DNA of 48,422 bases from Bacteriovoracaceae bacterium. Lineage in GTDB: Bacteria > Bdellovibrionota > Bacteriovoracia > Bacteriovoracales > Bacteriovoracaceae. The position numbers and the translations under genes are program-made. Numbering within the stretch: the first letter of the stretch is position 1; the number at the start of each line of letters is the position of its first letter. The stretch covers positions 1 through 48,422 of the forward strand of contig JADHTQ010000034.1 of NCBI GenBank assembly GCA_016784965.1, written 5' to 3'. This document shows positions 2,217 through 42,282 of this stretch, piece after piece. The notes below the pieces were generated by a model. That model searched no databases. It had not been told where the DNA came from and worked only from the letters and a program-made list of their open reading frames with translations.

Positions 2217-2675
2217 TTATTTGTAAGGTTTTTTTAACTTACAAATTGCCTCAATTATAGGTGTGTAGCCAGTACACCGGCAAAGATTGCCGGCTAGGGC
2301 ATGTTTTATTTGCTCAATATTTGGGTCTGGAATTTCTTTTAATAATTCAGTGGCAGCAACTACCATTCCCGGAGCACAGAATCCACATTGAAAAGTATTG
2401 CTATCGATAAACGCATGTTGGAGGGGGGTTAAATCGTTTTGCATCAATCCTTCTAAGGTGGTAAGCTGCTGTCCTTCAACCTCTGCACATAGGACTAAAC
2501 AACTTTTAACACTTTTGTTGTCTATCAAAATTGTGCAGGTCCCGCAGTCTCCTCGCTCACATCCACACTTGGGGCTTTTGACCCCCAGCTTGTCTCTTAG
2601 CACGTGTAGGAGCACTTCATTGGGTTTTACCTCAACACTTCTTTTTTCACCATTTAATACAAATGATACTTTCAT
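2217..2675 (-). CDS. Xanthine-dehydrogenase-type [2Fe-2S] subunit
   Basis: This is the small iron-sulfur subunit of a molybdenum hydroxylase (XdhC/CoxS type, 152 residues, normal length), which passes electrons from the molybdenum site to FAD. All eight ligands are present: Cys39, 44, 47 and 59 of the plant-type ferredoxin cluster and Cys97, 100, 132 and 134 of the second cluster (CGFC, CRCTGY). The ATG at 2675 has AGGAG upstream. It is the last gene of the seven-gene operon, 12 bases after the FAD subunit. No molybdopterin-binding large subunit is in the window, so substrate cannot be read and the pair may act with a partner encoded elsewhere. Confidence 0.93.
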   Translation of the reverse strand: MKVSFVLNGEKRSVEVKPNEVLLHVLRDKLGVKSPKCGCERGDCGTCTILIDNKSVKSCLVLCAEVEGQQLTTLEGLMQNDLTPLQHAFIDSNTFQCGFCAPGMVVAATELLKEIPDPNIEQIKHALAGNLCRCTGYTPIIEAICKLKKPYK

Positions 2676-2687
2676 CTTTTATTACTC

Positions 2688-3575
2688 CTACAAAAAATTT
2701 GTGCCATAACTTGGACCAATGCCTTTAAGCCTGGCAATAGAAGCCAAAAGTGCTCTTTTAAACATTACCTGGCACATGTGGGTGCGATACTCTTTGGTGG
2801 CCCTTATGTCGGTTATGGGAGAGATAACTGTGGGAATTTTTTTCATCACCTCTTCTATGAGTTTGTCATCTACTAGCTTGCCATCTAACATCTTTTCTAA
2901 ATTTAAAGGCCTAATTGGGGTGGGCCCCACTGAACCAAAAGATACTCTAAATTTATTTTTAGAGGTGGCCAGGACTGTGACTGTCGCTTGTGCTAGGTCT
3001 TCTCCTCTGTATCTTCCAAGTTTAATATAGCAGCCGGCATGTTTTGTGGCCGGTGCTTTTATTTCAATGGAAGTTACAATCTCATCTTTTTTAAGGGTGG
3101 TTTTTCTGGGGCCTTTAAACCATTTGGCAATGGGAATAGTTCTTCTTGCTTTTGATCCCACTATTTTTAACTTGGTATCATACACCATCAAAAAGCCACT
3201 GCTGTCCATGCAGGGAACTGCTGAGCAGATGTTACCAACCACGGTCGCTCGGTTTCTAATTGCTTTGGAGGCCACCGTTAGTGCTGCTTCATAGATTATG
3301 GGGAAATATTTTTTTATAGCTTTGGATGCTATTAAATCAGAAAAAGTAACTAGTGCCCCGATGGTGAGAGCGTTTTTGGTAACAGTTAGCTTTTTTAATT
3401 CTTTGATACCCTTTAAATCAATTAAGTTGCTTGGGGCCAGTGCATCTTCTTTGAGATTGCCAATTAGGTCGGTGCCGCCTGCTAGCAGCTGACTTTTTTT
3501 ATGCTTGGCCAGAAGTTTTTTTGCCTCGTTTAGGGTTTTGGGTTTTAGATAATCAAACTCGCAAGTTATAGTCAT
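2688..3575 (-). CDS. Xanthine-dehydrogenase-type FAD-binding subunit
   Basis: This is the medium, FAD-binding subunit of a molybdenum hydroxylase (XdhB/CoxM type, 295 residues, usual length). The FAD-binding loop LAGGTDL is at residues 31-37, the second typical segment VGNICSAVP lies near residue 110, and the C-terminal CO-dehydrogenase-flavoprotein domain follows. GAGGA precedes the ATG at 3575. It lies 28 bases after the cyclase-family gene and 12 bases before the [2Fe-2S] subunit. The usual order includes an adjacent large subunit, which is missing here. Function is assigned by family; the substrate is unknown. Confidence 0.92.
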   Translation of the reverse strand: MTITCEFDYLKPKTLNEAKKLLAKHKKSQLLAGGTDLIGNLKEDALAPSNLIDLKGIKELKKLTVTKNALTIGALVTFSDLIASKAIKKYFPIIYEAALTVASKAIRNRATVVGNICSAVPCMDSSGFLMVYDTKLKIVGSKARRTIPIAKWFKGPRKTTLKKDEIVTSIEIKAPATKHAGCYIKLGRYRGEDLAQATVTVLATSKNKFRVSFGSVGPTPIRPLNLEKMLDGKLVDDKLIEEVMKKIPTVISPITDIRATKEYRTHMCQVMFKRALLASIARLKGIGPSYGTNFL

Positions 3576-3603
3576 ACTTATCCTCGCTATTAATTGCTAT
3601 TAA

Positions 3604-4419
3604 TTAATTAGAAAAAGCAACAATTCTACACATGGAGGATTCTAGCTCAATTCCTTTTAAAGGGAAACAGCCAATCCAAGCTCTTTTATTGCTCAACTTA
3701 CCAATATCTCCACCTAAGTTTTCAGCGTGAACAATTCTTTGGGGGAATAATTTTAGATGCATCACTTGGTAGTACTCATCTTGAGGAAAATATTCATCCC
3801 AAGATTTTGCACCATACTTATCAATCAATAACTGCTCTGCCTCTTTAAATTTTGCTGGATGCCACTGTCTAATGATAGTGTTCATGGGGTGATCGGCACT
3901 GCCGCAATCAACTCCAATCCATTTTAACTTCATCTTGATGGCCCATTTGTGAAAATCTTTGCCCGGTCCAGGGTGTTTGACAAAATAGCGAATTTCATCT
4001 GATTTGTTTTGATCCCATCCGTATCTATTGTAGCCAGTATTAATAATTAGAATGTCACCTTTTTTGACCTCCACTCGGTCAGTTATCATCTTGGGAGTGT
4101 AGAGATCATAGTCTCCGACATCATCAGAAATATCCACGACGACTCCTTCTCCGACCCATTCGTTTAAAGGGACTTTGCCAATGGGCCTGCCCGAGGGATG
4201 AAAGTGGATTTCACCATCCATGTGGGTGCCCACGTGGTTACTGGTGGTTAAAATCTGGCCTGAGGCCCCCTGTCCCATGTGAGCTCCGGCTATTCTTTTA
4301 AAATACTGGATACCAAGGGGCATATAACTGGGCCATGGTGGTGTATGAATACTCAAATCTTGAGTCAGGTCATACATTTTAAGTTCACTCATAAATTTAA
4401 AAAAATCTTGTTCAGTCAT
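3604..4419 (-). CDS. Cyclase-family metal-dependent hydrolase
   Basis: The 271-residue protein belongs to the putative cyclase family, which includes kynurenine formamidase and isatin hydrolase and usually opens cyclic or formyl amides with a bound metal. The hallmark is visible as His62-Val-Gly-Thr-His66-Met-Asp68, with a further HFHP at residues 72-75. An AAGGAG site lies 6 bases upstream of the ATG at 4419. In the operon it sits between the YlbE-like subunit and the XDH FAD subunit, which suggests that it opens a ring to give a carbamoyl or amide compound handled by the neighbouring enzymes. That substrate is inference. Confidence 0.85.
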   Translation of the reverse strand: MTEQDFFKFMSELKMYDLTQDLSIHTPPWPSYMPLGIQYFKRIAGAHMGQGASGQILTTSNHVGTHMDGEIHFHPSGRPIGKVPLNEWVGEGVVVDISDDVGDYDLYTPKMITDRVEVKKGDILIINTGYNRYGWDQNKSDEIRYFVKHPGPGKDFHKWAIKMKLKWIGVDCGSADHPMNTIIRQWHPAKFKEAEQLLIDKYGAKSWDEYFPQDEYYQVMHLKLFPQRIVHAENLGGDIGKLSNKRAWIGCFPLKGIELESSMCRIVAFSN

Positions 4420-4443
4420 AGCTAACTCCTTGGTCTATCTATC

Positions 4444-5838
4444 TTATAACTTGTCTGCAAATCCTGTATATGCTTTTTTAAAGGGGTCCATGGGGGCACT
4501 TAAAACCCCGGCGCCAACTTGCCCGATCCCCGGTTTTTTATGGGCCACTCCGGTATCAATAAAGGGGAGCACATTTTTTTCCACTACTTTGATGACATCA
4601 ATGCCAGTTGGGGTGCCCCTAAAATTTAAATATGGTATCTGATACATGTTATTTTCTGCGATTGAAATTTCATACATGGCGAGTGTGTAGTTTATGGCGT
4701 CACTGGTGGTACCTCCCACAAATTGGACAATGGCAGGTGATGCGGCGATGGCGAAACCTCCTAGTCCGTTAGTTTCAGTAATAGAGCTATCTCCGATATC
4801 TGGATTGGCGTCTTCTTTAGAGTACCCTGGAAAAAACAAAGCATCGGGCACTGGTGCCTCTGCTGTAAACCACTCATCACCTGTTGCTGAGAGTTGGATG
4901 CCAAACTCGGTGCCATTTCTGGACATAACTGTGACTAAGCTACTATTTTTTACACCTCTGGCAGCATCCAGTGAGGCCTTGCAGGCAGGCATGGAGAGAT
5001 TTAAAAAGAAGTGGTCGTTGCCATTTATAAAACTTAACACTTCAGCTACCACTGAGGAGTTATCTGTAGTTTGCACAATTGCTGGGGCCAGTTGGCGATA
5101 CAAAAGGGAAGTGCCAGCGCGATTTCTGTTGTGAACTTCATCGCCCATATGCAATGCCTGGGCAATGATATTTTTTAAATCAATTTTTTTAAGCTTGGCA
5201 ATTGCTCGCTTTAGGGCAGGGTAGAGATCACTTTCCATCCACTTAAGTTTTTTTATTACATCCGCTCCATAGGCCCCGTAGCGCAAGACCTTGCCAAGCC
5301 CCTCATTCATGGTGCAGTAGGCGCGATTTTTATATTCTTCATTTTCGATAATAAAAACTGGCATGGAAGCAGAAACAATGCCGGCCATGGGACCAACTGT
5401 GCTGTGGTGGTGGCAGGGAGCAAACTTTATTTTACCCGAAGCTGCAAGAGCAATTGCAGTTTGTTCATCACTTGCCATCCCTTCATAGATAAGTGCTGCC
5501 ATAACGCCGCCTCTCATCGGGCCACACATTTTCTCCCAGGTGATGGGTGGGCCTGAGTGCAAAATTAAATTATCTTGCATGCCAGGAATGACATTTTTGG
5601 CGATGTCCATGCCTACAAGGCTTGGTTTGCTGTTTAACACTCGCTCTAGGGCCTGTTGATTGGCCTTGTTGATCTCACCTTTATAGTTATCAATTTTATC
5701 TTTAAGGGTGTGATCTATTTCTACAGGCGGCTTCCAATCAACCTGCACCGAGCTCACACCTGCTTTAGTTAAAGTTTCATGAAATGACTTAAGACCGATG
5801 TTGACTACATTAAGTGGTGAATCAAACAAATTGTTCAT
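4444..5838 (-). CDS. DUF1116 protein, YlbE/AllG-like carbamoyltransferase subunit
   Basis: The 464-residue protein matches the YlbE/YahG family (DUF1116) by length, by its position after an FdrA homologue and by conserved-looking glycine-rich segments such as CGPMRGGVMAALIYEG and GGTTSDAINYTLAMYEI. In Escherichia coli the FdrA, YlbE and YlbF proteins together have been reported as an oxamate carbamoyltransferase (AllF, AllG, AllH), which phosphorolyses a carbamoyl compound to carbamoyl phosphate. Its ATG shares one base with the stop of the FdrA-like gene (TAATG), so translation is coupled. The actual substrate is not readable from sequence. Confidence 0.85.
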   Translation of the reverse strand: MNNLFDSPLNVVNIGLKSFHETLTKAGVSSVQVDWKPPVEIDHTLKDKIDNYKGEINKANQQALERVLNSKPSLVGMDIAKNVIPGMQDNLILHSGPPITWEKMCGPMRGGVMAALIYEGMASDEQTAIALAASGKIKFAPCHHHSTVGPMAGIVSASMPVFIIENEEYKNRAYCTMNEGLGKVLRYGAYGADVIKKLKWMESDLYPALKRAIAKLKKIDLKNIIAQALHMGDEVHNRNRAGTSLLYRQLAPAIVQTTDNSSVVAEVLSFINGNDHFFLNLSMPACKASLDAARGVKNSSLVTVMSRNGTEFGIQLSATGDEWFTAEAPVPDALFFPGYSKEDANPDIGDSSITETNGLGGFAIAASPAIVQFVGGTTSDAINYTLAMYEISIAENNMYQIPYLNFRGTPTGIDVIKVVEKNVLPFIDTGVAHKKPGIGQVGAGVLSAPMDPFKKAYTGFADKL

Positions 5839-7412
5839 TATTTACCCCCTTTTAAAACTGAAAGTGCAAGTTTGAGAGCTTTTGCGTTTGAGGGGGCAAC
5901 CACTACTTGGAGCTTAGTAAGTGCAGTTACTACTTGAGCTTTAATTTGGGGATCATTGTCGGTTCCGGTTACGCTGCAGATGATGGGTAGCAGGCGACTT
6001 TGTTGTTTACAAAGGTCTTGTGCCTTTTCAATAGTGGGCACTAGTTCATCAAGGGGGCTCAAGTTGGCGCCATGGCCTAGCACCAGATCTAGTAGGATTA
6101 CCGCCACCGATGGGTCTTGTGCTTCTTGAATAATTCTTTGATTGCGCAGGGAAAAATCAATCATGGGATGGGGCCTACCGGCAGTAAACTCATCTTCGCC
6201 CAAATCGATGATGGTGTGTTTTTCACTGCGATGGACATCTTTTAATTTGTTTACTCCCTCTACCGGTGCGGCCGAATATAGATCGGGTAAATAACTAGAG
6301 GCAAGAAGTTGTGCTTCATAGCTATAAGTTCCTCCCGAAAAAAGCGCCCTTAAATATTTCTGCTGTGGTTTTAATTGCCTACTCAACTGAATTACAGTTT
6401 GTTGTAGGCCTTCAAATTCTGCTAATTTGTTTGCTTTAAAGTCACAAAGAGCTGCCTCACTAAATTTTCCACAATGCTCAAGGGCCAAATATGCCGCTTC
6501 TTCCAGTGTGTCTGCTGCAATCATGCCCAGAGATTCAACTTGCTCAGAGGAAGCACCAAGAAACAGGGCAACTACTTTTTTATCAATTGTTTTAACTAAT
6601 GCACCAATTTTATCCAGCACACTTGGGTGGGGTGGTTTGGAAACCAGTAGGATAACTTCTGTGTTTGGGTCGGACTTTAACATAGCTAGCGCCTGCAAAA
6701 ATGTAGTGCCTCCGACTTGCTCTTTGATATCTCTGCCACCGGTACCTACGGCTTGGGAGATTCCTCCGCCGTTGTTTGAAATCAAAGTAGTCACACTTTG
6801 AAGGCCGGTGCCAGAAGCTGCTACCACTCCAATGTTTCCTCGGTTTACAACGTTGGCAAAGGCCAGTGGCACCCCATTTATAATGGCCGTCCCACAATCA
6901 GGGCCCATAACCAGCAGACCTTTTTTTGCCCCAATTTTCTTTAGCTCGATCTCATCTTCTAAAGAGACGTTGTCAGAAAAAAGCATTACGTTTAGACCAT
7001 TTGCCAGTGCCTTTTTTGCCTCAGAGGTGGCATATTTGCCGGCAACAGAAATTAAGGCAAGGTTGGCCTGTGGCATTTGCTCGATGGCCCCCTCTAAGCT
7101 TTTTGGTAAAAAATCCACTGAGTCGTTGCTGCTTTTATCAAAAGCACAAAGGAGCTCATCAGCTTTATCCATCGCCTTTTTAATTATCTGTTGGTCACTT
7201 GCCTCGGCGACTATTATGAGATCTGCATCAGTTGTTTTTTCAAATTCATCTAGGTAGAGACCCGCATTTTTTAAAATGGACTTATTCTCTGTTGTTGCCA
7301 TGACTACCGCGGAGTTTAGGGATTCGTGCAGACGATTAATCTTTTGGGCCATAATCATTAGTGCTACTGAATCGTAATATTTACCAGTTTTTATTATTGC
7401 TTTAATTGCCAC
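5838..7412 (-). CDS. fdrA: FdrA/AllF-like acyl-CoA synthetase-fold subunit
   Basis: The 524-residue protein resembles FdrA, which is built like the succinyl-CoA synthetase alpha subunit. A CoA-ligase-type core is seen near residue 170 (MGPDCGTAI), followed by NRGNIGVVAASGTG and AVGTGGRDI, typical of this fold. The start is GTG at 7412, chosen because AAGGAG lies 6 bases upstream; it overlaps the end of the DUF2877 gene by 19 bases. By family knowledge it is the core subunit of a three-part carbamoyltransferase with its two neighbours. No carbamate kinase, which would turn carbamoyl phosphate into ATP, is in the window. Confidence 0.9.
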   Translation of the reverse strand: MAIKAIIKTGKYYDSVALMIMAQKINRLHESLNSAVVMATTENKSILKNAGLYLDEFEKTTDADLIIVAEASDQQIIKKAMDKADELLCAFDKSSNDSVDFLPKSLEGAIEQMPQANLALISVAGKYATSEAKKALANGLNVMLFSDNVSLEDEIELKKIGAKKGLLVMGPDCGTAIINGVPLAFANVVNRGNIGVVAASGTGLQSVTTLISNNGGGISQAVGTGGRDIKEQVGGTTFLQALAMLKSDPNTEVILLVSKPPHPSVLDKIGALVKTIDKKVVALFLGASSEQVESLGMIAADTLEEAAYLALEHCGKFSEAALCDFKANKLAEFEGLQQTVIQLSRQLKPQQKYLRALFSGGTYSYEAQLLASSYLPDLYSAAPVEGVNKLKDVHRSEKHTIIDLGEDEFTAGRPHPMIDFSLRNQRIIQEAQDPSVAVILLDLVLGHGANLSPLDELVPTIEKAQDLCKQQSRLLPIICSVTGTDNDPQIKAQVVTALTKLQVVVAPSNAKALKLALSVLKGGK

Positions 7413-8290
7413 TGATGTCTCCTTTGTATGCTCAAGATCAGACCCACAAGTAGATCTACCCCGGACGTGCTGCCAAGATTTGTCACTTCATTTACACATT
7501 GATTAAGCTTTTTTGTGGTGGGGTTAATGTCTGTTAGCACTTGTATCAACTGCTTGATCATGCCTGTATACTTTTTTTGTACTGTCCAAAAAAACATATT
7601 GTTGGAAATTAAATTATCCGATTTGGCCATATCTGCAATGACATTTATCTCTGGCAGTTTGGCACTATCCATAATTGGAGTAAGCAATATAATGGCAATG
7701 ATGCTTCCAAGTAAAAAATCATCACCACTGGGGGTAAGACCTGGGCCACAGCCTCTAAGTCCTTGTGCTCCTTGAATCCAATGGGGAGAAAAAAACTTGT
7801 CGATATCTTTTGTCACTTTAATTTTAAACTCGCGCTCAAAGGGGTTGGTGCTAGCTGCTTGTTTGGTTTTATTATCAAGTAAAAAGCTAAGACCTGCATC
7901 TTGAGAGTAAGCACACACTTGCTTTTTTACACTTTGAATGTTGTGCTCAAGCTGCTCTAAGGTGTAATTTTTGGGCAGCTCAAATGTGGAGACGTAAGTT
8001 TTACAGTCGTCACAGTCGGCCTTTGCAAATGAGATTTGTGTCCTGGAGGTTTTGGCGATAAACTGGTGATCAGTGATGATCAAAGAGGTAACACTGGTAA
8101 GGTCGCTTGCAAAATAGTCAAAGACCAGGTGGTTTGGTGCATCTGTTATAGGTGTTTTAACCAGTGAAACTATATCTTTTTTACCTCCAAGGCCTGTAAA
8201 GTTAATTACATTTTTAAAAGTGGAGTGCAATTTATAGCTACCAGTTTCAAGGGAGTCGCCATAAGACAATAATCTCAAGATTTGCTCCAA
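7394..8290 (-). CDS. DUF2877 protein, YlbF/AllH-like carbamoyltransferase subunit
   Basis: The 298-residue protein matches the DUF2877 family, including E. coli YlbF (AllH) and YahE. The motif GLTPSGDDFLLGSI near residue 185 is the family signature. The start is TTG at 8290, only 2 bases after the stop of the isochorismatase gene; AGGA sits close upstream, and the reading frame has no better ATG nearby. The end overlaps the FdrA-like gene. It is the third subunit of the presumed carbamoyltransferase and always travels with the other two in known clusters, as it does here. Confidence 0.85.
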   Translation of the reverse strand: MEQILRLLSYGDSLETGSYKLHSTFKNVINFTGLGGKKDIVSLVKTPITDAPNHLVFDYFASDLTSVTSLIITDHQFIAKTSRTQISFAKADCDDCKTYVSTFELPKNYTLEQLEHNIQSVKKQVCAYSQDAGLSFLLDNKTKQAASTNPFEREFKIKVTKDIDKFFSPHWIQGAQGLRGCGPGLTPSGDDFLLGSIIAIILLTPIMDSAKLPEINVIADMAKSDNLISNNMFFWTVQKKYTGMIKQLIQVLTDINPTTKKLNQCVNEVTNLGSTSGVDLLVGLILSIQRRHQWQLKQ

Positions 8291-8292
8291 TC

Positions 8293-8859
8293 CTATTGCA
8301 TCTTCTTAAGTTGCTTGACCATATGCTTGAACTCGGGGGTGTCGGCGCGCTTTAGAAGATGAAACAGTAGGGTTTCGGTATTTAAAATATGAGCACCGGC
8401 CTGCCTCATCAGCTCAAGCCCATTTTCCCATTTAAGTTTTGTAGTAGACAGTACGGCATCTTTTAAAACGATTACGATATATCCTTGATCTAGTAAATCT
8501 AAGGTAGTTTGCAAAACACAAATTTGGGTTTCAAGCCCTGTCACCACCACTATGGGCCTGGAGTTATTTTTTAAGTTTTGCTGAAATTGCTCATCCCCAC
8601 AACAACTAAAAGTGATCTTATCAGTAAAAACCGGGGCATCTCCCCACGCTTTTAACACTTCTGAGTCAGTATCCCCTAGACCTTTTTTGTAGTGTTCAGT
8701 GCCAATCATTGGCACTTCCAATTTTTTAAACATTTCAATCAGCAGTAGGATGTTTTTGTGAGCATCTTTTACAATAGATTTTTTTAGAATTTTAAAAAAG
8801 CTTTGTTGATAATCAATCAACAAAAAAAGTACATTTTCCGGTGTCAGTTTTTTCCACAT
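8293..8859 (-). CDS. Isochorismatase-family cysteine hydrolase
   Basis: The 188-residue protein has the family catalytic triad Asp16 (LLIDYQQ), Lys81 (TDKITF) and Cys114 (ETQICV), and the TEHYKKGLG segment found in YcaC-like members. Enzymes of this family hydrolyse C-N amide bonds such as N-carbamoyl compounds, ureidoacrylate or nicotinamide. The ATG at 8859 with AAGGAG upstream is preferred over an in-frame codon at 8895. It is the first gene of the seven-gene operon. A role removing ammonia from an amide intermediate such as an oxamate-like product is plausible but not shown. Confidence 0.9.
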   Translation of the reverse strand: MWKKLTPENVLFLLIDYQQSFFKILKKSIVKDAHKNILLLIEMFKKLEVPMIGTEHYKKGLGDTDSEVLKAWGDAPVFTDKITFSCCGDEQFQQNLKNNSRPIVVVTGLETQICVLQTTLDLLDQGYIVIVLKDAVLSTTKLKWENGLELMRQAGAHILNTETLLFHLLKRADTPEFKHMVKQLKKMQ

Positions 8860-8949
8860 ATCTTTCTCCTTCAAGTAAAGGGTACTCCTATCCATTTAGG
8901 TAAAAGAGATATCCTCCCAAATATAGGCGAAAATTGGAAGTGAATTCTT

Positions 8950-8986
8950 GGGGGGGCACCGCAGCACAGGTGGCAGCTATCCCCCC
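8950..8986. other. GC-rich hairpin with seven-G and six-C arms downstream of the first HNH gene
   Basis: A run of seven G at 8950-8956 faces six C at 8981-8986, with CACC and GGTG as an inner stem. It overlaps the end of the HNH gene. No T-tract follows, so it is not a canonical intrinsic terminator, but it could slow polymerase or protect the HNH transcript end before the operon start at 8859. Confidence 0.4.
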
Positions 8987-9888
8987 GGCGCAATAAACGA
9001 ATATTGAGGGCCAGCACTCGTTTGTTCTAAATAATAATTTACGCTCTTTGGCAATGTAACACTGTCTCCCTGCAACATTTTTTGTACACCCAGCACTTTA
9101 ACAGCTGCTCTAGCATTGCACCCAAAACACAATTTTCTGATATTTTCTTTAGAGCTATCACCACCTTTGGAGATAGGCCTTAAATGATCGTACTGCAAAT
9201 TTGTTCTGCTTTGACATCGCTTCCCAGAAATTGGAGAAATACCTTCGCATCTATTTTGGGCCCTTTTATCTACATGCTCTTTGACAACTCTCGTGATATA
9301 TCTTTGATTCTTAGAGTGTTTAGTTGATCTGCGCTTATCTTTGGCCTTTTTGTTTTGTTCAATATGTCGGTCTATCAAAGACTCGATAATCTCCAGCTCA
9401 GTGCAGCCTTCAAAGTCATCACTTATGTTTTCAAGCTTTCTTAATAGATGCTCAGGGAGTGTAATGTTCAACGATCGAGGCAGAGGATTATCGGCCAAAA
9501 AATTTAAAATATCTTTTGCCTGTCTACTAGATTTACCACAAACTTTTTTTACAACATCGTCTTTGTTTTGTTGTTTATTATTTTTAAAAAATGAATAGAG
9601 AGAGGCAGCCGTTGTCAGGCTCAGACTGCCATCTTGAATTTTTTCTTTGATGATGGGAGAGGCCTTAAAGGCCCGGACAACCTTCACGCGAACTGCTGCT
9701 TCACAGTCTGAATACTTAAGAATTCTCGTACAAAATTTATATAGAGATGGCACACCGTGATCAATAAAAACTTTTCGTCGATCGATCTCCTCGAGGTAAC
9801 TTAAAACTTCTGAAGCGATAAGTTTTTCCTCTTTAACTTTTTTTACTACCTGTACAATAAGCTCTTTATCACTAAGTGTATTAATCAT
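8977..9888 (-). CDS. HNH endonuclease-type protein, copy 1
   Basis: The 303-residue protein has an N-terminal helical region that resembles the DUF222-type segment of actinobacterial 13E12 repeat proteins (KFCTRILKYS, then SPIIKEKIQDGSLSLTTAAS), a basic linker, and a C-terminal HNH domain. In the HNH part, CEGISPISGKRC and LCFGC give four zinc-type cysteines and YDHLRPIS-GG-EN gives the catalytic His and Asn. The ATG at 9888 follows GGAGG and is preferred over the longer frame. A paralogue of identical length is at 41318-42229, about two-thirds identical by eye. No methyltransferase or other restriction partner is near. DNA cleavage is inferred from the motif; the biological role is unknown. 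Confidence 0.85.
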   Translation of the reverse strand: MINTLSDKELIVQVVKKVKEEKLIASEVLSYLEEIDRRKVFIDHGVPSLYKFCTRILKYSDCEAAVRVKVVRAFKASPIIKEKIQDGSLSLTTAASLYSFFKNNKQQNKDDVVKKVCGKSSRQAKDILNFLADNPLPRSLNITLPEHLLRKLENISDDFEGCTELEIIESLIDRHIEQNKKAKDKRRSTKHSKNQRYITRVVKEHVDKRAQNRCEGISPISGKRCQSRTNLQYDHLRPISKGGDSSKENIRKLCFGCNARAAVKVLGVQKMLQGDSVTLPKSVNYYLEQTSAGPQYSFIAPGG

Positions 9889-10198
9889 TTTTTCCTCCAA
9901 AGTTTCATAAAAAAAAACTAACACAATTGTGATCAATTGACTAATGTAAGAAAATGCCAAAAGACCCTTCAGAAGCCGGGCAAGGCTTATGAAACAGCTC
10001 TTGTTAGTAGCACAATAGCCTCTATTTGGGCCACTACTTTAAAGAAGTGAAAAAGTTGTTATTTTTTTCATTTTGGAAGCTTCTAAGACGTTAAAAGACC
10101 TCAGTATTTTTGTAAAAAAAAACTGTCATCAGCAAATTTGTGCTATCTACACTAAAATGCTCATTGCCATTTTGCATAATAAGTACTAAACAGTGCGG
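9889..10198. other. Divergent intergenic region between HNH copy 1 and the YiiX-like gene
   Basis: These 310 bases hold the leader of the HNH gene with CAATTG twice (9924-9929 and 9934-9939), the shared 20-base element at 9939-9958, a short hairpin AAGCC/GGCTT at 9973-9988, and an A/T-rich hairpin at about 10047-10071. No further open frame with a ribosome binding site is seen, and no convincing promoter for the plus-strand gene. Confidence 0.4.
9939..9958 (-). promoter_or_regulatory. 20-base element shared by both HNH gene copies, site 1
   Basis: Read on the minus strand this is GGCA followed by TTTTCTTACATTAGTC, lying 50 bases upstream of the HNH start at 9888. The same 20 bases with one change occur 53 bases upstream of the other HNH gene (42283-42302), while flanking DNA differs. 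It contains CTTACA, a possible -35 box. It is probably a promoter or operator shared by the family. Confidence 0.6.
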
Positions 10199-10831
10199 AT
10201 GAAACGGACAATAATCTATTATATTTTTGTAATTTTACTACTGATACCTATGGCGGTGCGGGCACTAGAGCTTAGACCTGGTGATATAATCTTAAAATCG
10301 CTGCCGTGTTATTCCTGTTCCATTATTGAGAGTGAGTCGGAGAGTTCATTTTCTCATTCGGGGCTTCTGATTAAAAATGAGCAAGATGAATTGGTAGTAG
10401 CTGAAGCTCTCGGAAAGGTCAGGACACAGACTATCGAAGATTTTTTAGATCAGTCGGCCCAAAATAAACAGATCGTTGTTGTGAGGTCAATTGAACTTGC
10501 GCAAATCTACCAAAGAAGTAAGCAGCAGTTTAAAAAAATTAGCGATACTTTGACCAACTTGTTTTACACACACTACAATCAACTTCCATTTGACTCACGC
10601 TACCTGTGGGATAATTTCTCTGAGAGCGGCCAGGAGCTTTTGTACTGCTCGGAGATGATCACTAAACTATTAAACAGGGTATTGACCAAAAAAATCAGGC
10701 CAACTCCGATGAGTTTTGATAGAAATTGGCAATATTGGTATGAATACTTTGATGGAGATGTCCCTCAAGGTAAATTGGGCAACTCCCCTTCGGATTTTGT
10801 TAATCCTGAGCTCTTTTTTCGACTGAATTAA
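10199..10831 (+). CDS. YiiX/YebB-like permuted papain-fold amidase, exported
   Basis: The 210-residue protein starts with a signal peptide (IIYYIFVILLLIPMAVRA) and continues with LRPGDIIL, the usual opening of YiiX-like proteins of the NlpC/P60 superfamily. The circularly permuted catalytic pair is His near residue 52 (FSHSGLL) and Cys near residue 148 (LYCSEM). Known relatives hydrolyse amide or ester bonds, often in cell wall or lipoprotein substrates, and the signal peptide puts this one in the periplasm. A GTG at 10193 is also possible as start; neither codon has a good ribosome binding site. It is monocistronic and converges with the broken lipoprotein gene. Confidence 0.85.
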   Translation: MKRTIIYYIFVILLLIPMAVRALELRPGDIILKSLPCYSCSIIESESESSFSHSGLLIKNEQDELVVAEALGKVRTQTIEDFLDQSAQNKQIVVVRSIELAQIYQRSKQQFKKISDTLTNLFYTHYNQLPFDSRYLWDNFSESGQELLYCSEMITKLLNRVLTKKIRPTPMSFDRNWQYWYEYFDGDVPQGKLGNSPSDFVNPELFFRLN

Positions 10832-10849
10832 ATATATTTAGTATTATAT

Positions 10850-11091
10850 TTAGTATCGACGAATTGGCATTTCTAAAGACTTTCGATGGTCATAATGAAG
10901 CATACTTTCACTGGCAACTTTATTGCAATCACAAATAGTGCATCCATCGATATTTATGTAGCATTTGTAGATATCGTCAGTGTCACATACAGGCTGATAT
11001 GGACATTTTGCCCACGATGATGATGCTTGATACTGTTGATGTGAGCATCCTACCAGCAATACCAATAGGAGGCATTTTTAAACGCAGTCAT
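10850..11091 (-). pseudogene. Small Cys-rich lipoprotein with a frameshift in its signal peptide
   Basis: The frame 10850-11065 encodes SCL-type features: LLVGC followed by a mature part with seven further cysteines (for example CPYQPVC and CTICDC). The lipobox is intact but nothing supplies the start of the signal peptide in this frame, which runs into TAA just upstream and would need a TTG start. An ATG at 11091, with GGAG upstream, opens a frame that ends after 13 codons. If the A5 run (minus strand, 11079-11075) were A6, the two frames would join to MTAFKKCLLLVLLVGCS, a textbook lipoprotein start. It is thus a fresh pseudogene, a homopolymer sequencing error or a site of slippage. Confidence 0.6.
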
Positions 11092-11197
11092 CTTAAACTA
11101 TCTCCAATAAAGTTGACCAAACAACTCGTGTAGTAAAATACGACCTTTTTGTATCAGAATCATATGAAAAAAGATAAGATACCTTAATATTATATAG

Positions 11198-11203
11198 TAT
11201 AAT
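11198..11203 (+). promoter_or_regulatory. Candidate -10 box for the SPFH operon
   Basis: TATAAT lies 40 bases upstream of the SPFH gene start in very AT-rich DNA. No good -35 hexamer stands at 16-18 bases upstream, so the assignment is weak. Confidence 0.3.
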
Positions 11204-11242
11204 TTTTTTTTAAAATTAAAAATATATAAAAAAGGATTTGAT

Positions 11243-12349
11243 ATGGGCCTATTTGACAAAATGAAGGGTGAGTTAATAGATATAATTGAGTGGACCGATA
11301 AGGAACCAGAGCTGTTGGTACATCGCTTTATTCGCTACCAAAACGAGATAAAGATGGGGGCCAAGCTCATTGTAAGGCCTGGGCAGCGGGCGCTATTTGT
11401 GCGCGAGGGTAAATTGGCCGATCTTTTTGGGCCTGGAACTCACACTTTGCAGACCAAAAACTTGCCCATTATGTCAACCCTGTCTGGTTGGAAACATGGA
11501 TTTAATTCACCCTTTAAGGCGGAGGTGTACTTTGTCGATACCACCGAGCAGTTGGATAGAAAGTGGGGAACTCCAAATCCGGTTATGTTGCGCGATCTGG
11601 ACTTTGGAATAGTAAGGCTTCGCTGTCGAGGAAATTACTCTTACAAAATAAGTGATAAGGCCAAGCTTTTATCGAGATTTGTGGGGGCCGGTGAAAAGTT
11701 TTATGCCGACGCCATTGAGGGGCAGATTAAAACGAAAGTAGTGTCATCATTTTCAGATGCCATCGGAGAGCTTAAAATTCCGGCCTTAGAGCTTGCCGCT
11801 CAATACGATGAAATTAGCAGTTGTGTGAAAGATAAGCTGGTTGTCCACTTTACACGCCTAGGCCTTGATCTACTCTCTTTTACTCTAGAAAATATTAGTC
11901 TACCTGAAGCCGTAGAAAAGGCCATGGACGAGCGAGCTTCCATGGGAGCTGTGGGAAATATGAATCAATACTCACAATTTCAACAGGCCAAGGCCTTGCG
12001 AGACGCCGCCTCTAACCAGGGCGGGGCAGGTTCTATGATGGGTATGATGGTAGGAGGACAGCTTGGTGGTGCGGTTTCTGGGGGACATGCCAGTAATGCT
12101 GCTCCAAAAGTAGTTGTAAAATGTCCAAAGTGTAATGCTCAATCACCTGAAGGCTCAAAGTTTTGTGCTAGTTGTGGCGGGCAGCTTGCCTCTGATCTTG
12201 TAAATTGTATAAAATGTAAAAGCTCAATTCCAAAAAATACAAAGTTTTGTCCCGAGTGTGGATCACCTCAGGAAGTAAAATGTAGTGGATGCAACATTGT
12301 TCTAGAAGCTGGGGCCAAGTTTTGTCCAGAATGTGGGGCCAAACAATAA
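11243..12349 (+). CDS. SPFH/band-7 protein with three C-terminal zinc ribbons
   Basis: The 368-residue protein has an SPFH (band 7, 'virion core protein' type) domain at about residues 25-235 (IVRPGQRALFVREGKL, FGPGTHTL), a Gly/Met-rich linker (GGAGSMMGMMVGG) and three zinc ribbons from residue 293: CPKC/CASC, CIKC/CPEC and CSGC/CPEC. SPFH proteins form membrane-associated oligomers that organise membrane patches. The architecture resembles Bacillus YdjI, which is encoded beside a PspA homologue, but no PspA is here. AAAGGA precedes the ATG. It heads a three-gene unit with the Tim44/TerB protein 32 bases downstream, which also has zinc ribbons, so the two products probably interact. Confidence 0.88.
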   Translation: MGLFDKMKGELIDIIEWTDKEPELLVHRFIRYQNEIKMGAKLIVRPGQRALFVREGKLADLFGPGTHTLQTKNLPIMSTLSGWKHGFNSPFKAEVYFVDTTEQLDRKWGTPNPVMLRDLDFGIVRLRCRGNYSYKISDKAKLLSRFVGAGEKFYADAIEGQIKTKVVSSFSDAIGELKIPALELAAQYDEISSCVKDKLVVHFTRLGLDLLSFTLENISLPEAVEKAMDERASMGAVGNMNQYSQFQQAKALRDAASNQGGAGSMMGMMVGGQLGGAVSGGHASNAAPKVVVKCPKCNAQSPEGSKFCASCGGQLASDLVNCIKCKSSIPKNTKFCPECGSPQEVKCSGCNIVLEAGAKFCPECGAKQ

Positions 12350-12381
12350 TGCCTAATAAATTTTAATCACTAGAGTAATTT

Positions 12382-14367
12382 ATGAAAAAATATCAAAAGA
12401 CTTTAATTAAGTATCTCCCCTTAATTAGTTTTGTCTCATTTATCTGCTACATCGTTTGTATCGAAGTACTTTTTGCTCGCACTGGAGGCGGAGGCGGCTT
12501 TAGTGGTGGGGGAGGTCGCAGTGGTGGAGGCTTTGGTGGTGGTAGCGGTGGGGGCGGCGGCGGCGCTGAGATCATCTATTTAGCAATGCATCTGATACGA
12601 GGACTTATTTATTTGTGTCTCCACAGACCTCTAATAGGTATTCCTCTAACTATATTTGTAATTTATGTTGCCAACAAGATGATGAAGCTATCTGCTTCTG
12701 GGTATCAGTCCAAGATGATTTCTCGGTACGGCAAAATGCAAACGAAGCTAGAGCAAGTGGCGCAATTTACCAAAATTAAAAAAAGAGATCCAGCATTTGA
12801 TGAGCTTGCATTTGTTCGAAATATCATCAAAGGATTTGTAAAAATTCAAAATGCTTGGGGCAAAGAAAACCTAAAAGCTGTACGAACTTTGATGTCAGAT
12901 GGGGCCTATGAAAGGCTATCTACCAATTTACAAATGAATCGAGCAAGCCTCAGTGTTAATAAAATGGAGAACTTAAAAGTAATTGATGCTCAAATTGCTG
13001 CAGTTAAATGTGGCAAACATTTTGATACCATCCATGTTGCCATCACAGCTTCAGCTAACGATTATCATATAAACCCCAAAACCAACAAGAAAAACTATCA
13101 ATTTGATGAACCTATATTTACAGAGTTTTGGTCTTATATAAGGCGCCCTGGAGCTAAAACTCTAAATAAAAAAGGGCCAGTTGATGGCTTTTGTCCCAAT
13201 TGTGGAAATCCGCTTGCGCTTTCTGATAAGGTTCAGTGTGATTCATGTAAAGCAGTAATTACTAGTGGGGAATATGATTGGGTGTTATCGGAGATTACTC
13301 AAGATAGTGTCTTTGGTGGTGAGCGCGACAGACAGATTACAGGTCTTGGGCAGTTGATGGAAAAAGATGAAGAATTTAATGTCCAACATATGGAAGATCG
13401 CGCCACCGTTGCCTTTTGGCGCTACCATGCGGCCCAATTTTTTGCCGATAAAAAATACATTGTTAAATTGGCCACTTCTAGCTTTGTCAAAAAAGTTGCC
13501 TTTGAATTTCAAAGTGACAACAAAGGCAGAAGAACTTTTTATAAGGATGTGGCAGTCGGTGCAGTCGACGTTTTAGGTTTCGAGCTTGTCCAAGGAAATG
13601 ATGGATTTGATAAATGTAGCGTAATTGTTACTTGGTCAGGACATCTTGAAACCAAACCCTTAAACCAGGAGTTGATTCCAGATTTTGATAAATCAAGTTT
13701 GAAAAAGTCACTACTTATATTTATTAGGCACACCGGCCAGTCATCCTCACTAAAAAAATCCCTGTCTGCCAATCATTGTTTTGGTTGTGGTGCTCCTGAG
13801 ATGATTTCAGATAGTCCAAGTTGTGAATACTGTGGGCGTGCACTTAACGATGGACATGGCGACTGGGTGCTGTCAGATGTACAACCATATTCGCTAAGTA
13901 GGGGGACCCGGGTTACAAGGTCAACTGCAGCGCCTACTGCTGCTGCTGCTTCATCTTCTGCACTTGCCCCTGATGATTTAGTCACTGCTTTGATCTGTCT
14001 TGCCATGGCAGATGGTAATATTGATGAAAAGGAAAAAAATATTATTCGTGATGTGGCCAAAAAGAGCAATATAAGTAGGCAAAAGTTAAAACAATTAGTA
14101 GCTAGGGCCCGCAGTGAAGAAGATTTTACTTTGCAAGTAGCGCAAGGGGCTGCCCTGCATGAGTTAATGGGGCAACTGGTTGATGTTTGTTTGGCAGACG
14201 GTCGTGTTTGCTCTTCTGAGCGTAGATTGTTAAAGAAGATGGTAAAGCAACACAATATAACTGACATTGACATTAACCAAATGATAAAACAAAAAAAGCG
14301 CAATTTGTTTAAAGAGAAAAAGGCACAGTACAAACAGACCAAACGGGAACTTAAGAGTTTAAAATAA
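12382..14367 (+). CDS. Membrane protein with two Tim44-like/zinc-ribbon units and TerB domain
   Basis: The 661-residue protein has an N-terminal membrane segment (LISFVSFICYIVCIEVLFA), a Gly-rich stretch (residues about 33-60), a second hydrophobic segment, then two similar units. Each unit has a Tim44-like alpha/beta domain, a zinc ribbon (CPNCG-CDSC near 270-285; CFGCG-CEYC near 466-482) and the sequence DWVLS followed by E or D. A TerB-like helical domain occupies about 530-630 (LICLAMADGNIDEKE, VCLADGRVCSSE). Relatives are uncharacterised membrane proteins; TerB occurs in envelope and metal stress systems. Its gene lies in the same direction between the SPFH gene and a small tail-anchored protein gene. 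Function is unknown. Confidence 0.85.
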   Translation: MKKYQKTLIKYLPLISFVSFICYIVCIEVLFARTGGGGGFSGGGGRSGGGFGGGSGGGGGGAEIIYLAMHLIRGLIYLCLHRPLIGIPLTIFVIYVANKMMKLSASGYQSKMISRYGKMQTKLEQVAQFTKIKKRDPAFDELAFVRNIIKGFVKIQNAWGKENLKAVRTLMSDGAYERLSTNLQMNRASLSVNKMENLKVIDAQIAAVKCGKHFDTIHVAITASANDYHINPKTNKKNYQFDEPIFTEFWSYIRRPGAKTLNKKGPVDGFCPNCGNPLALSDKVQCDSCKAVITSGEYDWVLSEITQDSVFGGERDRQITGLGQLMEKDEEFNVQHMEDRATVAFWRYHAAQFFADKKYIVKLATSSFVKKVAFEFQSDNKGRRTFYKDVAVGAVDVLGFELVQGNDGFDKCSVIVTWSGHLETKPLNQELIPDFDKSSLKKSLLIFIRHTGQSSSLKKSLSANHCFGCGAPEMISDSPSCEYCGRALNDGHGDWVLSDVQPYSLSRGTRVTRSTAAPTAAAASSSALAPDDLVTALICLAMADGNIDEKEKNIIRDVAKKSNISRQKLKQLVARARSEEDFTLQVAQGAALHELMGQLVDVCLADGRVCSSERRLLKKMVKQHNITDIDINQMIKQKKRNLFKEKKAQYKQTKRELKSLK

Positions 14368-41317: not shown

Positions 41318-42229
41318 TTACTTATCTGGCGGAATAAAACTATACTGAAGACCTGTATCTGTTTGCTCCAAGTAATACTCAACGCCAGGTGACAGGGCAG
41401 CACTGCCTCTTTGCACCATTTTCTCTGTCCCGAAGGCCTTGACAGCTGCCCTCTGGTTACAACCAAAACAAAGCTTTCTGATATTTTCTGTCGAGCTATC
41501 TCCTCCTAACGAAATTGGGCGTAGATGATCATATTGAAGATTAACTCGACTGGTACAACGCTTCCCAGTTATGGGAGAGAATCCTTCACACCTATTTTGT
41601 GCCCTTGTATCTACTGACTCTTTGACCTCTCTGGTAATATATCTCTGGCTTTTTGATTGTTTAGTAGATGTGCGTTTTGCTTTGGCAAGTTCAGTTTGTT
41701 CAATATATTTATCGAGCAAACATTCGATCACTTCAAGCTCACTGCAATCATCAAAATCCCGCCCAACCTTTTCAAGCTTCTTTAATAAATGTTCTGGAAG
41801 GGTAATATTTAACATTCTTGGTGGTGGATTTTTAGATAGTGAATGTAAAATGTTTTTTACCTCTTTGCTCGATCTGCCGCATACATGTTCAACTAACTTG
41901 CTTTTGTTTTGAATTCTATTGTTTTTAAAAAATGCATACAGTGAAGCAGCAGTTGTTAAACTTAAACTTCCATCTTTAATTTTTTCCTTAATAATGGGCG
42001 CCGCTTTGATAGCACGTATGGTTTTTACCCGTATCGCAGCTTCAGCATCAGAGTATTTCAAAATTCGTGTACAAAACTTAAACAACGAAGGTGCGCCATA
42101 ATCGACAAACAATTTCCTTTTATCAATTTCTTCTAAATAATTTAAGACTTCTATGATAATTTGTTTTTCCTCTTTAACTTTTATTTTAATACCGGCAACT
42201 AATTGTTTGTCACTCAATTTACAGATCAT
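41318..42229 (-). CDS. HNH endonuclease-type protein, copy 2
   Basis: This 303-residue protein matches the copy at 8977-9888 across its whole length: the helical DUF222-like region, the basic linker and the zinc-type HNH domain (CEGFSPITGKRC, YDHLRPIS-GG-EN, LCFGC). Both have the same length without gaps. The ATG at 42229 follows GGGGAG, and an in-frame longer start at 42268 is not used. It lies 22 bases after the convergent HD-GYP gene end. Both copies are monocistronic and share an upstream 20-base element. The role is unknown; no partner gene is found. Confidence 0.85.
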   Translation of the reverse strand: MICKLSDKQLVAGIKIKVKEEKQIIIEVLNYLEEIDKRKLFVDYGAPSLFKFCTRILKYSDAEAAIRVKTIRAIKAAPIIKEKIKDGSLSLTTAASLYAFFKNNRIQNKSKLVEHVCGRSSKEVKNILHSLSKNPPPRMLNITLPEHLLKKLEKVGRDFDDCSELEVIECLLDKYIEQTELAKAKRTSTKQSKSQRYITREVKESVDTRAQNRCEGFSPITGKRCTSRVNLQYDHLRPISLGGDSSTENIRKLCFGCNQRAAVKAFGTEKMVQRGSAALSPGVEYYLEQTDTGLQYSFIPPDK

Positions 42230-42282
42230 TTCACTCCCCTTGTTTAAAATATTTTTAGAAACTATCATAACAATTGCATAAA

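Follow-up and report, generated by a model that had tools for sequence, protein, structure and literature searches.

What does a bacterium do with an operon that joins the three subunits of an AllFGH-type carbamoyltransferase to subunits of a xanthine dehydrogenase (XDH)-type molybdenum (Mo) hydroxylase? Such an operon, comprising seven minus-strand genes, lies at positions 2217-8859 of a 48,422-nucleotide contig (JADHTQ010000034.1; contig C87 in our numbering and, at its full length, the window analyzed here) from a Bacteriovoracaceae bacterium, the assembly of which has a size of 4.58 Mb in 126 contigs and is 97% complete and 3.8% contaminated. The original prediction for this locus had proposed that the operon degrades an N-heterocycle by a pathway that could not be named. 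Our analyses support that the cluster probably constitutes a module for ring opening and carbamoyl phosphate formation, and that a Mo subunit and a carbamate kinase encoded elsewhere in the genome would complete the operon as a pyrimidine catabolic module. As for the name of the pathway, oxidative uracil degradation via barbiturate fits best, and we give about an even chance to the idea that uracil, thymine, or a similar pyrimidine is degraded by the cluster in this way.

As predicted, all seven open reading frames (ORFs) are intact, with intergenic gaps in the order of transcription of 2, −19, −1, 24, 28, and 12 bases, and the Pfam matches of the encoded proteins all exceed the cut-off (Table 1). 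Two of the families, originally given as DUF2877 and DUF1116, are currently named AllH and AllG in Pfam. The ATG start codon at 8859 of the isochorismatase-type gene is backed by an upstream Shine-Dalgarno sequence (AAGGAG), while the longest ORF begins at 8895, and inspection of the protein sequence revealed an Asp-Lys-Cys triad (D16/K81/C114). The AllG gene of the operon is the sole copy in the genome.

Table 1. Genes of the operon, in order of transcription, and the Mo subunit gene encoded elsewhere (aa, amino acids; FAD, flavin adenine dinucleotide)
Feature	Length	Position	Strand	Matches and remarks
Isochorismatase-family cysteine hydrolase	188 aa	8293..8859	-	PF00857 99.5 bits; first gene
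AllH/DUF2877 carbamoyltransferase subunit	298 aa	7394..8290	-	PF11392 70 bits
AllF/FdrA subunit	524 aa	5838..7412	-	PF00549 111 bits; NCBIfam PRK06091 487 bits (cut-off 433); GTG start
AllG/DUF1116 subunit	464 aa	4444..5838	-	PF06545 339 bits
PF04199 cyclase-family metal hydrolase	271 aa	3604..4419	-	PF04199 113 bits; proposed ring opener
FAD subunit, XDH-type Mo hydroxylase	295 aa	2688..3575	-	PF00941 160 bits, PF03450 65 bits
[2Fe-2S] subunit, XDH-type Mo hydroxylase	152 aa	2217..2675	-	PF01799 101 bits, PF00111 31 bits; last operon gene
Mo subunit, orphan gene		contig C103, L005:8904-11276	+	Neighbours unrelated

When 84,980 genomes were scanned for AllG, 80 loci with AllG proteins of 65-73% identity emerged, distributed among Cloacimonadota, Bacteroidales, Elusimicrobia, Verrucomicrobia, Eisenbacteria, Myxococcota, Bdellovibrionota, Acidobacteriota, and other groups. 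Many of these loci have the gene order AllH-FdrA-AllG-cyclase-FAD-FeS-Mo (FeS, iron-sulfur subunit), while the order in Elusimicrobia is cyclase-FAD-FeS-Mo-nitrilase-AllH-FdrA-AllG. Using tblastn on the 28 loci with long enough flanks, we found all seven core genes (AllH, FdrA, AllG, cyclase, FAD, FeS, and Mo) on one strand in 24. The original prediction had raised the question of whether the gene order exists in other genomes; that it recurs across phyla argues that the grouping is not due to chance.

The nearest cluster-bearing relatives are Bdellovibrionota metagenome-assembled genomes. Among 97 related genomes, AllG, a Mo subunit of the C103 type, the isochorismatase-type enzyme, and the cyclase are each present in the identical 8 genomes, which come from 8 different genera. 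For any pair of these genes, coincidence of the 8-genome sets by chance has a probability of 7e-12, assuming independent genomes, an assumption that phylogeny violates. The cluster is complete in G011, G029, G039, and G041. Mo alone is relocated in the window genome and in G025, FAD-FeS-Mo is split off in G017, and FAD-FeS-Mo plus the cyclase is split off in G019; altogether, Mo is unlinked from allG in 4 of the 8 cluster-bearing relatives. Because the genes are dispersed and yet retained in the same genomes, they likely work together. The Mo (64-79% identity) and cyclase (69-82%) proteins are highly alike across phyla, which suggests that they may act on one substrate. We consider it very probable that the gene set is one functional unit.

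The XDH-type enzyme of the operon has no Mo subunit inside the window, and the genome contains only three Mo-subunit genes (on contigs C49, C39, and C103). The gene on C49 sits in a purine set with adenine deaminase, XDH Mo/FeS/FAD, XdhC, and a MocA-like protein. The gene on C39 is part of a cluster (L006, C39:58000-77000) that resembles the yge-ssnA purine/uric acid region of Escherichia coli and encodes a YgeW-like carbamoyltransferase, a carbamate kinase-like protein, an M20 peptidase, a fused XDH, an amidohydrolase, and two pyridoxal phosphate enzymes; we note that this yge-ssnA-like cluster occurs here in a Bdellovibrionota-type genome. The Mo subunits that adjoin the FeS gene in other phyla are closest to the C103 protein (64-79% identity) and not to the purine XDHs. 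In bovine XDH, Glu802 and Arg880 bind the purine and Glu1261 is the base (PMC3624778). The equivalent of Glu802 is Ala (GGGFG[GS]K-Ala) in all 47 Mo subunits of the cluster type that were compared, as well as in C103, whereas both purine XDHs of the genome carry GGK-Glu at this position. The equivalents of Arg880 and Glu1261 are kept in the sampled cluster Mo subunits, with the catalytic Glu found in GARGVGE in C103 and in GE in every aligned member. Overall, the cluster Mo subunit is ~30% identical to the purine XDHs of the genome, and the nearest solved sequence is 4-hydroxybenzoyl-CoA reductase (CoA, coenzyme A). Thus, the enzyme shares the three-subunit architecture and the Glu1261 and Arg880 equivalents with xanthine dehydrogenase (XdhABC/PucCDE) but differs at Glu802, and these comparisons support that it is not a purine-type XDH.

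We also considered two other explanations for the distant Mo gene. A pseudo-operon without a Mo subunit was ruled out, since the C103 orphan is of the cluster type and is co-inherited in 8/8 genomes. Contamination of the assembly is unlikely as the origin of the C103 gene, the best match of which is in the Bdellovibrionota relative G039 (80%); furthermore, Mo and allG are unlinked also in G017, G019, and G025. As a separate observation, a Tim44/TerB-domain protein is encoded near the operon (window 12382-14367, plus strand), and a 50% identical paralogue (L005:13064-14833, minus strand) adjoins the relocated Mo gene on C103.

In allantoin utilization, the E. coli AllFGH complex converts oxalurate to carbamoyl phosphate and oxamate (PMC11326118), and AllFGH has been proposed for nitrifiers (PMC12625717). 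In agreement with the original assignment of an FdrA-type carbamoyltransferase, the operon encodes clear homologues of all three subunits, with identities to E. coli K-12 of 40% (FdrA), 44% (AllG), and 25% (AllH, over 120 aa). As for E. coli AllFGH with the carbamate kinase AllK, the same three subunit families are encoded adjacently, a carbamate kinase is present in the genome, and the expected product is carbamoyl phosphate. The differences, beyond the identities, are that the cluster AllGs are separated from the tested E. coli and plasmid AllGs by a branch with a support of 99/98, with long branches as a caveat, that the carbamate kinase is unlinked, and that the complex would be fed by a Mo hydroxylase and a cyclase in place of the allantoin enzymes. 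The genome contains carbamate kinase copies on C92 and C39, of which the C92 gene is solitary with no arginine deiminase genes adjoining. Carbamate kinase is present in 8/8 of the cluster-bearing relatives versus 6/89 of the others (p 2e-8). Of the 31 genomes from other phyla that bear the cluster, 28 have it as well.

Related arrangements are found on plasmids. Plasmids of Leclercia (L091), Aminobacter (L090), and Klebsiella (L146) encode FdrA/DUF1116 and carbamate kinase beside an AtzD-type amidohydrolase, with DUF2877 nearby in L091 and L090. These clusters are like the operon in combining an opener of a cyclic imide with an AllFGH-type enzyme, but their ring opener is unrelated (in L091, a cyanuric acid amidohydrolase; NF052395, 580 bits) and they are without a Mo hydroxylase; they suggest AllFGH-type phosphorolysis of ring-opened cyanurate. 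The E. coli IncF plasmid pEC5931-1 (L142) carries the genes cysteine hydrolase-DUF2877-fdrA-DUF1116-arcC-cytosine permease-LysR at 2816-10994, and AllG matches resembling that of L142 are present on many E. coli plasmids, possibly reflecting another use of ureides or pyrimidines. A relationship of the window isochorismatase to the cysteine hydrolases that adjoin AllHFG on plasmids of E. coli and Peptoclostridium was considered and set aside, the relatedness being only weak. Finally, Rhodococcus opacus pR1CP1 (L145) carries at 7234-13764 a distant DUF1116 gene with short-chain dehydrogenase/reductase oxidoreductases and two glutamine synthetase-like genes, and there is no annotated FdrA nearby.

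For the cyclase, we aligned 49 homologues, which have a mean column identity of 72% and in which the metal ligands are kept. The metal motif of the window cyclase (HxGTHxD..H) retains His, His, Asp, and the final His, while Pro is replaced by Glu/Gln. The solved structures closest to an AlphaFold model (predicted local distance difference test score, 82) are isatin hydrolases (4m8d; Z 20.4, 3.2 Å over 212 residues), and other PF04199 structures differ from them by no more than one Z unit. Isatin hydrolases are marked by the metal motif HxG[T/A]HxDxPxH and a GLQC/GLAS signature (PMC6117287). The latter is not present in the sequence of the window cyclase, which ruled out isatin hydrolase as its function and indicates that it is a relative of this enzyme. 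Thus, the cyclase is like isatin hydrolase and kynurenine formamidase in fold (Z 20.4 for 4m8d and 18.4 for 4cob) and metal ligands but is only ~20% identical to them, and the comparison of models supports that it groups structurally with the lactam-opening isatin hydrolase. No cyclase relatives were found in phage records, and an AtzD query for an AtzD/barbiturase-fold protein gave no match in the 80 cluster loci, the whole genome not being searched.

Haloarchaeal plasmids encode cyclases that are 46-48% identical to the window protein together with XDH-type enzymes and permeases for nucleobases; in Halostagnicola, cytosine deaminase and CodB accompany them. Several of these plasmids (L132, L134, L137, L138, L139, and L140) encode XDH-type subunits, the cyclase, XdhC, NCS2 permeases, and a CocE/NonD hydrolase; some haloarchaeal clusters include a CoA-transferase, and with no annotated AllFGH in the stretch read, they look like an archaeal counterpart to the front part of the cluster.

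Reversible phosphorolysis by AllFGH requires an acylurea, and uracil and thymine are the natural pyrimidines that give an acylurea by C-H hydroxylation (via barbiturate) and ring opening. Gene content, co-inheritance, and family assignments are direct results, whereas the substrate and all reactions proposed for this bacterium are inferred. In the first step, the hydroxylase formed by the FAD, FeS, and Mo subunits would oxidize the C6-H of uracil to give barbiturate. In the second, the PF04199 enzyme would hydrolyze one imide bond of barbiturate to give ureidomalonate, which is an acylurea and the three-carbon homologue of oxalurate. In the third, based on homology to E. coli AllFGH, AllF-AllG-AllH would phosphorolyze ureidomalonate to carbamoyl phosphate and malonamate. 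In the fourth, carbamate kinase would convert carbamoyl phosphate to ATP, CO2, and NH3, while the isochorismatase-type enzyme would convert malonamate to malonate and NH3. A few bacteria have an oxidative pathway, involving barbiturase and ureidomalonase, by which pyrimidines are converted via barbiturate and ureidomalonate to malonate and urea (PMC3758960). The proposed intermediates up to ureidomalonate and the final malonate are the same; however, the ring opener here would be a PF04199 enzyme and not of the AtzD/barbiturase fold, and ureidomalonate would be phosphorolyzed, with energy saved, and not hydrolyzed to urea. We tentatively propose, at slightly less than even probability, an energy-conserving oxidative uracil/thymine route across many, largely anaerobic phyla, in which a dedicated Mo enzyme would hydroxylate uracil, a PF04199 protein would hydrolyze barbiturate, and an AllFGH-type carbamoyltransferase would act on ureidomalonate. 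In the open-licence PMC literature, we found no published account of AllFGH with a Mo hydroxylase and a PF04199 enzyme.

UraA-type permeases, the enzymes in the position of the final amidase, and the haloarchaeal association with cytosine genes point to a pyrimidine substrate. Recognizable permeases are encoded near the cluster in seven loci and are all UraA-type, with the best match to uracil permease at 359 bits versus 223 bits for xanthine permease; no xanthine-type permease was recognized in the cluster loci. The permeases of L025, L027, L042, L044, and L055 have TTY[SA]EN, with Tyr and Glu as the second and fourth residues of the NAT motif, as well as the Glu of transmembrane segment 8, while the L032 permease ends before the motif and that of L012 is a short fragment. 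Nucleobase specificity is governed by Gln/Glu and Phe/Tyr at these positions (PMC5972032), and UraA Glu241 and Glu290 bind uracil (PMC5539350). The original prediction had asked whether a Mo subunit, purine transporter, or carbamate kinase co-occurs with the cluster; a Mo subunit, a permease, and a carbamate kinase are all found. The final-amidase slot is filled by three unrelated families, namely the isochorismatase in Bdellovibrionota and Myxococcota, an amidase-signature enzyme together with a CoA-transferase in Cloacimonadota and Bacteroidales, and an omega-amidase-like nitrilase in Elusimicrobia. These enzymes are expected to share one reaction, the hydrolysis of a dicarboxylate monoamide. 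The original idea that the isochorismatase-type enzyme removes the last amide therefore stands insofar as the cluster is often accompanied by an amide hydrolase of one family or another, but the isochorismatase was found only in members of the two phyla and is replaced elsewhere. Overall, the predicted logic of N-heterocycle degradation is partly supported: comparative evidence backs one functional unit, a non-purine Mo hydroxylase, and an isatin hydrolase-like cyclase, while the activities and the substrate are predictions.

Several observations weigh against uracil or thymine as the substrate. UraA-type permeases are present in only 7 of the 80 loci, mostly in Cloacimonadota, and the sole NCS2 permease of the window genome looks like a purine-type AzgA/PbuG. 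The best score of the CoA-transferase that adjoins the cluster in Cloacimonadota and Bacteroidales is to CoA:oxalate CoA-transferase (379 of 522 bits, below the cut-off), which would fit oxalate as the end product (the oxalurate/oxamate route). There is no family-III CoA-transferase in the window genome, so the fate of malonate is unaccounted for. Haloarchaeal Mo subunits belong to a different subfamily (28% identity), for which reason the haloarchaeal pairing is supporting evidence only, and most such clusters are without cytosine genes. Finally, a trio of thiolase, OB-fold protein, and f21 in about ten loci is unexplained by pyrimidine degradation. The f21 protein (~250 aa) has no Pfam/NCBIfam match, and the trio is found next to clusters that are missing the amidase/CoA-transferase pair, in loci including L010, L013, L024, L048, L054, L077, L027, and L032.

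Among the alternatives, the one that survives best, albeit as a rather unlikely one, is that the Mo enzyme acts on another N-heterocycle or an aldehyde and AllFGH on another acylurea or biuret, with the signs of uracil limited to certain lineages. The missing Glu802 is also compatible with aldehyde oxidase-like enzymes, the plasmid AllFGH homologues adjoin cyanuric acid ring-opening amidohydrolases, so that substrates vary, and the end-product genes vary between phyla; however, the likeness of the Mo and cyclase proteins across phyla suggests one substrate, and the permeases found are all of one type. Distinctly less probable is the same module acting on a five-membered ring, in which the cyclase would open parabanate or a related imidazolidine to give oxalurate, AllFGH would form carbamoyl phosphate and oxamate, and the amidase would release oxalate. 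The sole characterized AllFGH uses oxalurate/oxamate (PMC11326118), in line with the best score of the neighbouring CoA-transferase, but no allantoin gene or oxalyl-CoA decarboxylase was recognized in the cluster neighbourhoods read, enzymes of the Mo hydroxylase family do not typically hydroxylate an sp3 ring carbon, the permeases are UraA-type, and the cluster AllGs are apart from K-12 AllG (99/98 branch). An ordinary purine/allantoin salvage operon with borrowed XDH subunits, as brought to mind by the XDH-type subunits and AllFGH of known purine pathways, was rejected as highly improbable because the genome has purine-type XDH sets at two other loci (C49 and C39), both with the purine-type GGKE (Glu802), which the cluster Mo subunit lacks.

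Elsewhere in the window, a gene of unknown family (896-2182) lies downstream of the operon on the same strand, with no cluster association found in relatives. Two HNH endonuclease-like genes (8977-9960 and 41318-42268, both minus strand) encode proteins with 69% identity over 302 residues and belong to a family that is repeated in the genome.

If oxidative degradation of uracil via barbiturate is the function of the cluster, then genes would be assigned to a uracil-oxidizing molybdenum enzyme, and there would be a second barbiturate-opening enzyme, unrelated to the first. The carbamoyl groups of pyrimidines would be converted to carbamoyl phosphate and ATP and not lost as urea. The AllFGH family, which was identified in 2024, would reach beyond allantoin, and pyrimidine use would be predicted in candidate phyla with few isolates.

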